Source of the DNA: Gammaproteobacteria bacterium
GTDB lineage: Bacteria; Pseudomonadota; Gammaproteobacteria; Steroidobacterales; Steroidobacteraceae
DNA: 32,745 nucleotides
Direction: 5' to 3'
NCBI GenBank assembly: GCA_030038755.1
Contig: JASHSK010000192.1
Location: forward strand, 1-32,745
Shown: piece after piece, positions 21,926-26,064 of the stretch
How positions within the stretch are numbered: position 1 is the stretch's first letter
How the letters are laid out: every line of letters starts with the position of its first letter
Program-made: the position numbers and the translations under genes
Notes under the pieces: generated by a model
Seen by the model: the letters and a program-made list of their open reading frames with translations, nothing else
What the model was told of the DNA's origin: nothing
The model's database searches: none

Positions 21926-23587
21926 CTAGCCGTCGGGCTCCGCTGCCAGCGGCCGGCGCAGTTGGATGGCCTCGGCCAGATGGGCCGGCTCGATGGCTTC
22001 GCTGTCGGCCAGGTCCGCGATGGTGCGGCTCAGCCCCAGCAGGCGCTGCACACCCCGTCCGGAGAGTGGCCAGCGCTGGCAGGCCTGACGCATCAGTCGC
22101 GCCGTAGGCGCGGGTAGCGCCCGGCATTCGCGCAGGGCCGACACCGGGCCATTCAGCGCCCCGGAGCGCTGCAGGCGCCGCGCGCGTGCGGCGCGCACCT
22201 GCGCGGCATAGTCCGCGCCATCGGTACCTCCACCGACCAGCTGTGCCAGCTCCCGCGCGGCCAGACGCGCTACCGTCACGCGGATGTCGATGCGATCCAG
22301 CAGCGGGCCCGAGACGCGCTCGCGATAGTGGCGCACCTGCCCGGGCGTGCAGCGACACTCGACGCGCGCATCGCCCTGGTAGCCGCACGGACAGGGATTC
22401 ATCGCCGCAATCAGCTGGAAGCGCGCCGGCAGGTGCAACCGCCGCGCGGCGCGCGCGATGGTGATGCGGCCGCTCTCGAGCGGCTCGCGCAATGCTTCGA
22501 GCACGCGTCGATCGAACTCCGGCAGCTCGTCGAGAAACAGCACTCCACAGTGCGCCAGGCTGATCTCTCCGGGCAGCACCGCGGCCCCGCCGCCGACCAT
22601 GGCACTGGCGGAGCTGGTGTGATGCGGGCAACGAAACGGCCGCCGAGTCCAATCGCGTGCTTGCAACCGCTGCCCCGACAGCGCGCGCAGGCTGGCCACC
22701 TCGAGCGCCTCCTCGGCGCTGAGCGGTGGAAGCAGCGCCGGCAGGCGCGCCGCCAGCATGCTCTTGCCACTGCCAGGCGGCCCGATCAGCAGGATCGAAT
22801 GTCCGCCCACAGCGGCGATCACCAGCGCGCGCTTGGCATGGTGCTGCCCGATGACCTCGGCGAGCCCCGGTACCTCGGCATCATCGCGGACCTGCACGTC
22901 GGCGGCCAGCGCATCGATCGGCTGAATGCGAAACAGCTCGGGCCCGCTGGCCGAGCCACCCGCCGCCGGCCCGGGTGGTGGCGGCGACCCAGGCGACCCG
23001 GGCGGCGATCCAGGCGCCCCGGGTAACCCCGGCGCCCCGGGTGACCCAGGCGACCCGAGCGCCCCGGGCGACCCAGGCCCCCTGATGTAGGCGCGCACCG
23101 CGGCGCGCAGGTGCGTGGCCGCGCAGGCCGAGGCTACCGCCGCAAGAGCCACCTCCTCGGCATTCGCGGCCGGCACGATCAGCGTGTGACCGGCGCGCGA
23201 GGCCTGCAGGGCCGCCAGAAATAGCCCGTTCACCGGCTTGAGCTCGCCCGCGAGACCCAGCTCTCCGTAGCACTCGACGAGCGGCCGCGCCGGCGCCGCC
23301 AGTTGGCCGCTGGCGATCAGCAACCCCAGCGCGATCGGCAGGTCAAAGCGCCCGCCGTGCTTTGCGAGCTCCACGGGCGCCAGGTTGACGGTGATGCGCC
23401 GCTGCGGAAAGTCGTACCCGGAGTTCTCGAGCGCGGCGCGCACGCGCTCGCGACTCTCGCGCACCACCAGGGCCGGTAGCCCGACGATCGTGAAAGCCGG
23501 CAATCCGACACCGAGGTGCACTTCCACCTGCACCTGCGGTGCCTCCATGCCCAGCTCGGCGCGGCTGAGCACGCGCGCAACGCCCAT
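21926..23587 (-). CDS. comM: YifB/ComM family Mg-chelatase-like AAA ATPase
   Basis: LSRAELGMEAPQVQVEVHLGVGLPAFTIVGLP; Walker A IGPPGSGKSMLA; Walker B GVLFLDELPEF; MNPCPCGYQGD. Confidence 0.93.
   Translation of the reverse strand: MGVARVLSRAELGMEAPQVQVEVHLGVGLPAFTIVGLPALVVRESRERVRAALENSGYDFPQRRITVNLAPVELAKHGGRFDLPIALGLLIASGQLAAPARPLVECYGELGLAGELKPVNGLFLAALQASRAGHTLIVPAANAEEVALAAVASACAATHLRAAVRAYIRGPGSPGALGSPGSPGAPGLPGAPGSPPGSPGSPPPPGPAAGGSASGPELFRIQPIDALAADVQVRDDAEVPGLAEVIGQHHAKRALVIAAVGGHSILLIGPPGSGKSMLAARLPALLPPLSAEEALEVASLRALSGQRLQARDWTRRPFRCPHHTSSASAMVGGGAAVLPGEISLAHCGVLFLDELPEFDRRVLEALREPLESGRITIARAARRLHLPARFQLIAAMNPCPCGYQGDARVECRCTPGQVRHYRERVSGPLLDRIDIRVTVARLAARELAQLVGGGTDGADYAAQVRAARARRLQRSGALNGPVSALRECRALPAPTARLMRQACQRWPLSGRGVQRLLGLSRTIADLADSEAIEPAHLAEAIQLRRPLAAEPDG
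22983..23084 (-). repeat. 9-bp tandem repeat array encoding a collagen-like Gly-X-Y segment within comM
   Basis: About 11 units of GGCGAC/GCCCCG-type repeats; minus-strand translation GPGSPGALGSPGSPGAPGLPGAPGSPPGSPGSPPPPGP. Confidence 0.85.
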
Positions 23588-23659
23588 GAGCCCGCAGCGC
23601 CCGCCCGCGCCCCTCACGCCGCTGCAGATCGTGAGCCCGTCCAGCTCGCGTCGATCGCG

Positions 23660-23935
23660 CTACTGCACGGGTGGTGGCACCTCTTCTCCCAGCTCCTTCA
23701 GGTGCTTCTCGAGCGCGGCCACGCGCACTTCGAGTTGCTCGAGGCGCGCGCGCGTGCGCTCGAGGACCTTGGTCTGCACGTCGAATTCGTCGCGCGTCGT
23801 CAGGTCGAGCCGTCCGAGACTCGACTGCAGCACCGCGCGGAAGTTGCTCTCGATATCCCGGCGCATCGTGCGTGCGGTCTCGGGTAGTCGCTCGAACAAT
23901 GCCCGCGCAATGTCCTCGATACGAAGGTTGTCCAT
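23660..23935 (-). CDS. ubiK: Ubiquinone biosynthesis accessory factor UbiK (BMFP/YqiC family)
   Basis: MDNLRIEDIARALFERLPETARTMRRDIESNFRAVLQSSLGRLDLTTRDEFDVQTKVLERTRARLEQLEVRVAALE: typical length and coiled-coil. Confidence 0.88.
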   Translation of the reverse strand: MDNLRIEDIARALFERLPETARTMRRDIESNFRAVLQSSLGRLDLTTRDEFDVQTKVLERTRARLEQLEVRVAALEKHLKELGEEVPPPVQ

Positions 23936-24066
23936 CGTGATCCCCTCAGGCGTAAGCGCCCGATATTCGCCCCGAAACCGCGCATACCCGCCAATCCCAT
24001 GGCCAAACTGGTGCAGACCGCGGCCGCGGCACCCGACAACTCCTGATTTCACAGGCCGGCCGCTCG

Positions 24067-24082
24067 TGGCATGGATTCTGCA
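24067..24082 (+). promoter_or_regulatory. Putative sigma-54 (RpoN) promoter upstream of the PII-amtB pair
   Basis: TGGCATGGATTCTGCA against consensus TGGCACGNNNNTTGCW; invariant GG-N10-GC spacing kept; about 90 bp upstream of the PII start. Confidence 0.6.
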
Positions 24083-24172: not shown

Positions 24173-24469
24173 ATGTCTGTCATGAAGATGATCACGGCGG
24201 TCGTTCGGCCCTTCAAGCTGGACGATCTGCGGCAAGCGATCGCTCAACTCGGCGTACAGGGCGTCACGGTGACCGAAGTGCATGAGGCGCAGTTCGGACC
24301 GCGCACCAAGCTGGAGATCGCGGTGGACGATGCGATCGTCGAGCCGGTGCTCGAGGCACTGGCGAACGTTTCCAGAACCGGCCGGCCCGGTGACGGACGC
24401 ATCCTGGTCGGCGAGCTCGAACAGGTGATCCGCATCCGCACCGGAGAGACCGGAGCCCCAGCCACCTAG
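24173..24469 (+). CDS. PII-family signalling protein lacking the T-loop (GlnK position, beside amtB)
   Basis: PFKLDDLRQAIAQLGVQGVTVTEV, B-loop RTGRPGDGRILV, C-loop IRIRTGE. The region between VTEV and KLEI is only HEAQFGPRT. ATG 24173 or 24182 start. Confidence 0.9.
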   Translation: MSVMKMITAVVRPFKLDDLRQAIAQLGVQGVTVTEVHEAQFGPRTKLEIAVDDAIVEPVLEALANVSRTGRPGDGRILVGELEQVIRIRTGETGAPAT

Positions 24470-24513: not shown

Positions 24514-26064
24514 ATGCGCATGGATCGTTTTGCCAGGAAACTCTGTTGGCCGGCGGTGCGGAAGGTCGCCGGCACCGCGCGATTGCCGGTCGCCGCTACT
24601 GTGCCATGGGCGGCGGGCCAGCGCGCGCGGGCGCTGGGGACGCGCGCCGTGATCGCGGCGTTTGCCGCACTGATCGTGTCCGTGCTGCTGCATGCGGCAC
24701 CGGCCGCGGCCCAGACGGCACCCCCTGCGCCGGCAGCAGCAGCACCGGCCGCGGCGACACCCGCCCCAGCGGCTACGGCGCCGGCACCCGCCGCGGCGCC
24801 CGCCGCAGCTGCGGCTGCGGCGCCGACCCAGCCCTATGTCACCACGTTCGACAAGATCAATTCGGGCGACACCGCGTGGATGCTGACCTCCACGGCGCTG
24901 GTGCTGATGATGACGGTGCCGGGACTGGCGCTGTTCTACGCCGGCATGGTGCGCAAGAAAAATGTGCTCGCGACGCTCATGCAGAGCTTCGCGATCACCT
25001 GCCTGGTGACCGTCCTGTGGTGGGCCGTGGGGTATTCGCTGGCCTTCACACCGGGCAGCAAGTACATCGGCAGCCTGCACTGGGCGTTCCTCAATCACGT
25101 CGTGTACATGCACGATGCAATGAAGGAAAGCGTCTCGCACCTCGCGCCCACGATCCCCGAGACCGTGTACGCGATGTTCCAGGCGACCTTCGCGATCATC
25201 ACCCCGGCCCTGATCTGCGGCTCGTTCGCTGAGCGCATGAAATTCTCGGCGATGATGTGGTTCATGGGCATCTGGCTGATCGTGGTGTACTGCCCGGTGG
25301 CGCACTGGATGTGGGAGTCCACCACCGGCTGGTTCGCTGCCACGCAGCTGGACTTCGCGGGCGGAACGGTGGTGCACATCAACGCCGGTATCGCCGGACT
25401 CGCGACCGCGCTGATGCTCGGCAAGCGCCAGGGTCTGGGACGCGAGGCGATGGCGCCGCATAACCTGACCCTTACCGTGATCGGCGCCTCGCTCCTGTGG
25501 GTCGGCTGGTTCGGCTTCAATGCCGGCTCCGCCGTCGTATCCGACGGCCGCGCGGGCATGGCCTTCGCGGTGACTCATATCGCCACCGCGACCGCGGCGC
25601 TCGCCTGGATGTTCACCGAGTGGCTCGTCAAGGGGAAGCCCAGCGTGCTGGGCATCTGCTCCGGAGCGGTGGCCGGATTGGTGGCCATTACGCCGGCCTC
25701 GGGCTTCGTCAGCCCCGACTCCTCGGTGATCATCGGGCTGGCGGCGGGCGTGGTGTGCTTCTTCACCTCCACCTCCCTGAAGAGGGCGGTGGGCTATGAC
25801 GACTCGCTGGACGCCTTTGGCGTGCACTGCATCGGCGGCATCATCGGAGCCCTGCTGACCGGCGCTCTGGTGAGCAAGGAGATCAGCGGCGCGACCGGCA
25901 GCGTGCTGCTGCAGCTGCGCGGCGTGATCGCCACGCTGGTGTGGAGCTTCGTGATGAGCATGATCATCCTCAAGGCCATCGATCTGACGATCGGGCTGCG
26001 CGTGAGCACCGACGAGGAGCGCGAGGGCCTGGATATTTCGCAGCATGGGGAGAGCATCGAGTAG
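24514..26064 (+). CDS. amtB: Ammonium transporter AmtB with Ala/Pro-rich N-terminal linker
   Basis: GDTAWMLTSTALVLMMTVPGLALFYAGMVRKKN; LDFAGGTVVHINAG; LWVGWFGFNAGS; FGVHCIGGIIGALLTG; conserved C-terminal tail. Confidence 0.95.
   Translation: MRMDRFARKLCWPAVRKVAGTARLPVAATVPWAAGQRARALGTRAVIAAFAALIVSVLLHAAPAAAQTAPPAPAAAAPAAATPAPAATAPAPAAAPAAAAAAAPTQPYVTTFDKINSGDTAWMLTSTALVLMMTVPGLALFYAGMVRKKNVLATLMQSFAITCLVTVLWWAVGYSLAFTPGSKYIGSLHWAFLNHVVYMHDAMKESVSHLAPTIPETVYAMFQATFAIITPALICGSFAERMKFSAMMWFMGIWLIVVYCPVAHWMWESTTGWFAATQLDFAGGTVVHINAGIAGLATALMLGKRQGLGREAMAPHNLTLTVIGASLLWVGWFGFNAGSAVVSDGRAGMAFAVTHIATATAALAWMFTEWLVKGKPSVLGICSGAVAGLVAITPASGFVSPDSSVIIGLAAGVVCFFTSTSLKRAVGYDDSLDAFGVHCIGGIIGALLTGALVSKEISGATGSVLLQLRGVIATLVWSFVMSMIILKAIDLTIGLRVSTDEEREGLDISQHGESIE

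Follow-up and report, generated by a model that had tools for sequence, protein, structure and literature searches.

The window, the whole 32,745-nucleotide stretch that we analyzed, carries an uninterrupted open frame on the forward strand (24173-24469; 98 aa, MSV-MKMITAVVRPFKLDDLRQAIAQLGVQGVTVTEVHEAQFGPRTKLEIAVDDAIVEPVLEALANVSRTGRPGDGRILVGELEQVIRIRTGETGAPAT) that encodes a short PII signalling protein. Because PII proteins begin with MK, we preferred the start at 24182 to the alternative ATG at 24173, nine bases further 5', and this start gives the 95-aa frame that the earlier note had read here. The protein matched P-II (PF00543) over the full length of the profile (positions 1-102), and its 68.6 bits exceeded the curated cut-off of 25. 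The amtB gene begins 45 bp 3' of the short PII gene and is intact. The ComM/YifB-like frame of the window (21926-23617, reverse strand) has a collagen-like stretch in mid-protein (GSPGALGSPGSPGAPGLPGAPGSPPGSPGS...), and a similar GGAGGAGG run was read by eye in a glutamate-cysteine-ligase-like frame of L145.

Table. Features at the short PII locus (positions are those of the window).
Feature	Position	Strand	Basis and remarks
ubiK/yqiC (BMFP, PF04380)	23660..23941	-	Conserved neighbour upstream of the short PII gene
Weak NtrC-like site ATGGCCAAACTGGTGCA	23999..24015	+	8/12 consensus bases
Sigma-54-type -24/-12 promoter-like site TGGCATGGATTCTGCA	24067..24082	+	Consensus fit and conservation
T-loop-less PII (GlnK orthologue)	24182..24469	+	95 aa from MK; ORF, Pfam, alignment
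New tight beta-hairpin HEAQFGPRT, replacing the T-loop	24281..24307	+	Codons 34-42; alignment, AlphaFold2
B-loop RTGRPGDGRIL	24374..24406	+	GDG kept; Lys90 position is Arg here, variable across the clade
C-loop RIRTGE	24431..24448	+	R101 and R103 equivalents, invariant
amtB, ammonium channel	24514..26064	+	PF00909, 383 bits; N-terminal extension, conserved C-terminal tail GLRVSTDEEREGLDISQHGE

In PII proteins the T-loop is the element for modification, 2-oxoglutarate sensing and, in most known cases, target contact. When the short PII was aligned with canonical PIIs of 112 aa, the only difference in length fell in this loop. The short protein reads VTEV-HEAQFGPRTK-LE where canonical PIIs carry the T-loop, a net loss of 17 residues that include R38, Q39, R47 and Y51 (E. 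coli numbering, from the alignment and general knowledge of PII); after VTEV come HEAQ and then the F-x-P-K/R-x-K of strand 3. The same 17 residues of the loop (about residues 37-55) were deleted in all 19 short members that we found. Across 18 short proteins, hairpin residues E35, G39 and R41 were invariant, as was the C-terminal AT. R41 lies at the position of K58, and Lys58 is thus replaced by Arg in 18/18.

The residues that an intersubunit nucleotide cleft requires, T29, E62, G87-D88-G89, R101 and R103, were invariant in 18/18 short proteins, a pattern consistent with trimerisation and adenine-nucleotide binding as far as sequence can speak to them. The K90 position was occupied by R in 8 proteins, K in 4, H in 2, S in 2, and L and Y in one each, so nucleotide binding may be weakened. 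Thus among the Mg-ATP/2-oxoglutarate ligands R38 and Q39 are absent, K58 is changed and K90 is variable; in all 88 PIIs compared from outside this GlnK lineage, ten of them GlnB-type proteins of the window's genus, R38, Q39, Y51, K58 and K90 were invariant. In the 2-oxoglutarate complex the protein binds Mg through Q39 alone (PMC3198391), and with Q39, R38 and K58 gone, canonical 2-oxoglutarate sensing would not be expected. The alignment confirmed the net loss of 17 residues, with Tyr51, Gln39 and the arginine that plugs AmtB, described in the earlier note, and the absence of uridylylation on Tyr51 and of AmtB plugging by Arg47 that it foresaw follows directly from the missing residues. Its view that the B-loop and C-loop motifs are kept held for GDG, R101 and R103 but not for the phosphate ligand Lys90, which is relaxed; neither this change nor the one at Lys58 had been mentioned there.

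An AlphaFold2 monomer model made with a 40-sequence alignment had the PII fold (pLDDT 87.5, pTM 0.76), and in it a three-residue turn linked strands 29-35 and 39-48 into a tight hairpin. Foldseek matched the model to solved PIIs at query-normalised TM-scores of 0.88-0.95. These included 5ovo_B, which was also the best end-to-end sequence match in the PDB; in the 5ovo entry the engineered GlnZ-delta42-54 is bound to DraG.

We then considered whether the deletion was an error of assembly, a frameshift or a peculiarity of one strain. The draft genome to which the window belongs is fragmented into 376 contigs, which speaks for an error, and the other genomes of the clade are likewise drafts. However, 19 species-level genomes, from two related genera and with sequences up to 36% divergent, had the same in-frame deletion, and at least four of these (L004-L007) are public MAG records in their own right. 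We rejected an artefact on these grounds and give it next to no credence. The earlier note had raised the possibility that close relatives all have a full T-loop at this locus; this was not so, as 13 of the 15 genomes of the window's genus had a short PII, 64-93% identical to that of the window. In one of these genomes (G004) the contig ends within the gene, after codon 81 of 98. The remaining six carriers belong to a second genus, g25.

Beyond these two genera we found no short PII among the listed matches in 217 family genomes (25 genera), nor among those listed at a strict threshold in 397 order genomes (72 genera) and 369 class genomes. A search of 399 phylum genomes with a loop-less profile, expected to favour loop-less proteins, yielded no independent T-loop-less PII among its best-scoring matches, to which the result applies; all others were full-length, at 324-333 bp. 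Plasmid matches were all below 60% identity, and the six listed were full-length.

Canonical PIIs accompany the short form in its genomes. In the window's genome, where the earlier note had advised looking for a full-length PII, there are two canonical copies with complete T-loops (C193 and C108), and glnD is present. A glnD match above the cut-off was found in 12 of the 13 short-PII carriers of genus g1.

The order cytc-comM-ubiK-PII-amtB-dapF-DUF484 is common to the short PII loci of both genera and to full-length GlnK loci in sister genera g5 and g23, which identifies the short PII as the locus's own GlnK, altered in place. In a maximum-likelihood tree the short PIIs grouped with the GlnKs of g5, g23 and g20 (94/99), several of which have eroded T-loops, and separately from the GlnB-type PIIs that the same genomes encode. 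Alignment, synteny and tree thus bear out the description of a T-loop-deleted PII in the glnK place beside amtB, and show that it is the vertically inherited GlnK of an ancestral glnK-amtB locus that has since lost its T-loop. We also considered a recent duplicate, and rejected it because the gene occupies the ancestral glnK position and groups with family GlnKs, not with glnB copies. All short PIIs share the hairpin ExxFGPR, and a single deletion in the lineage of the two genera would be the simplest reading, from an alignment whose few columns leave the inner branching unsettled.

Other GlnKs at this locus were altered to lesser or greater degrees. Out of 24 full-length family GlnKs, R38 was changed in 5, Q39 in 5, Y51 in 2, K58 in 5 and K90 in 4, while R47, which enters the AmtB pore, was retained in 24/24. 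Full-length proteins with R38, Q39 or Y51 substituted were L113, L121, L165, L169, L115, L173 and L180. We found no PII between ubiK and amtB in G216 (L197), G008 (L198) or G207 (L199), where the two genes are direct neighbours. These are apparently PII gene losses with amtB retained, in three genomes of three genera, and they indicate that the PII gene is dispensable. Across the sister genera the locus therefore presents a series of canonical GlnK, eroded T-loop, deleted T-loop, and gene lost with amtB kept. This comparison is undated, but it suggests an order in which function may have been lost: the 2-oxoglutarate and Mg-ATP ligands, which vary among the full-length GlnKs examined although all of these retain the AmtB-plug arginine, then the AmtB plug, and the gene last.

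The graded series would also fit a slow decay, in which the T-loop-less PII has no present function and is on its way to loss, as in the genomes that keep amtB alone. The coding sequence argues against this. Median pN/pS was 0.23 in the 18 complete short genes versus 0.25 in full-length family glnK and 0.19 in the glnB of the genus, and dN/dS was 0.03-0.33 in the 20 closest pairs of short genes. No stop codon or frameshift occurred in the 18 genes, whereas 91% of runs simulated under neutrality, with 0.5 substitutions per site, acquired stops. The low pN/pS is maintained over high dS, the hairpin residues are invariant, the promoter-like site is conserved and the gene has persisted in two genera. 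Because neutral sequence would have gained stops, this evidence, above all pN/pS, largely refutes slow decay, which we regard as unlikely. A pseudogene was rejected for the low pN/pS, the lack of stops and the conserved hairpin; the earlier note, too, had argued against simple decay. We conclude from the substitution pattern that, as these sequence-based measures show, the short PII gene is maintained by purifying selection.

A site of the form TGGCA[C/T]-N5-CTGCA lies about 115 bp 5' of the start, at an alignable position, in the 17 short PII loci that were aligned, with the variant TGGTACGCTTCCTGCT in G013; in full-length glnK loci the site lies at -78 to -135. The g25 loci have good NtrC-like sites and the window a weak one, of which the GGTGCA half is kept in most relatives. 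The conserved sigma-54-type site leads us to infer that the short PII and AmtB would be co-produced when nitrogen is limiting.

The short PII gene adjoins amtB in 14 genomes. The AmtB proteins beside it (L147-L164) fall into two divergent types, with identity to the AmtB of the window of about 78-86% in one and about 52% in the other; it looks as though amtB was swapped there and the short PII retained. In G013 the short PII is retained without amtB at the locus, and amtB is on another contig (L158, G013:C44; L163, G013:C320). A second, complete pair of full-length PII and amtB is found elsewhere in a short-PII genome (L151, G014:C10). Two more Amt-family proteins, L206 (G000:C345) and L207 (G000:C151), are just 30-33% identical to the window's AmtB.

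Might the short PII still regulate AmtB, docking for example on its C-terminal tail without entering the pore? Adjacency in 14 genomes and conservation of that tail would fit. However, GlnK contacts AmtB almost exclusively via its T-loops (PMC4274968), the two divergent types of adjacent AmtB imply that no specific partner was preserved, and AmtB without a neighbouring PII occurs in sister genomes. We consider regulation through such a contact improbable.

Two published results suggest uses for a core without a T-loop. PII paralogues can assemble together: heterotrimers of GlnB with GlnK were described in E. coli (van Heeswijk 2000 and Forchhammer 1999, both cited by PMC5448240). Furthermore, GlnZ-delta42-54 retains binding of UmpH and has lost the response to 2-oxoglutarate (PMC11617674). 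We propose that the 95-aa protein would fold as a PII core, oligomerise and keep the adenine-nucleotide cleft (T29, E62, GDG, R101, R103). It would lack the Mg/2-oxoglutarate site (Q39 and R38 absent, K58R), the site of uridylylation and the AmtB plug, and would act as a PII subunit permanently devoid of the output loop. When nitrogen is scarce, it would most likely join canonical GlnB paralogues in mixed trimers, and fewer T-loops per trimer would mean less blocking of AmtB and less GlnB signalling.

A second mode is close in likelihood. The short PII may form homotrimers that bind a target through the core or lateral face under control of ATP/ADP only, by analogy with GlnZ-delta42-54, which retains DraG (5ovo) and UmpH (PMC11617674). 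The invariant E35, G39, R41 and C-terminal AT suggest a maintained interaction surface, but amtB is the sole fixed neighbour, and the GlnK-AmtB contact is made almost exclusively by T-loops (PMC4274968). We hold a separate partner to be possible, with a good deal of doubt. The mixed trimer is placed slightly ahead because canonical PIIs are present, the gene shares an operon with amtB and has no other linked partner gene. Counted against mixed trimers is the identity of only about 50% between the short PII and its own genome's GlnBs, versus 67% between E. coli GlnB and GlnK (PMC11617674); the variable Lys90, the dispensability shown by the losses in G008, G216 and G207, and the short PII of G013, with no amtB at its locus, count against the explanation as a whole. 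Taken together, our best explanation is a selected GlnK, changed in place, that lacks the T-loop and serves as a loop-less subunit, most likely in mixed trimers with GlnB. We advance it tentatively, at somewhat less than even confidence. Still more tentative is the idea that such proteins form a class of T-loop-less PII that occurs naturally and is under selection, a nitrogen-induced "blank" subunit with which dilution of T-loops by stoichiometry, and not a ligand or covalent modification, sets the AmtB block and signalling of GlnB.

A PII long retained in the glnK place without its T-loop separates the function of the core from that of the loop. Either the short PII works without a part thought essential, or it acts by joining full-length copies.

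In the literature covered, which leaves out most subscription papers, PIIs with no T-loop or a short one were only engineered variants or PII-like proteins, and none was a natural PII. PstA, SbtB, CutA and similar proteins share with PII the ferredoxin-like trimer class, but the short PII sequence matches true PII families only. It resembles canonical GlnK/GlnB (PF00543) in fold, in B-loop and C-loop motifs, in the glnK-amtB locus and in the sigma-54-type promoter site, and differs in being short, without the T-loop (R38, Q39, R47, Y51), with K58 changed to R and K90 variable. The eroded GlnKs of sister genera (those named above, except L115) belong to the same GlnK lineage; several share K58R, and those of g23 share the C-terminal GETGxAA(T/A). 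They differ from the short PII in that the T-loop and R47 are present, with R38/Q39 or Y51 substituted. The known protein most like it is GlnZ-delta42-54 of Azospirillum brasilense (PDB 5ovo), a PII core with a shortened T-loop. That protein is a laboratory construct that lacks 13 residues and keeps GFGRQ with R38 and Q39, while 17 are missing from the natural short PII, whose new hairpin is invariant. Nevertheless, the construct shows that a PII core with a shortened T-loop folds and binds partners.
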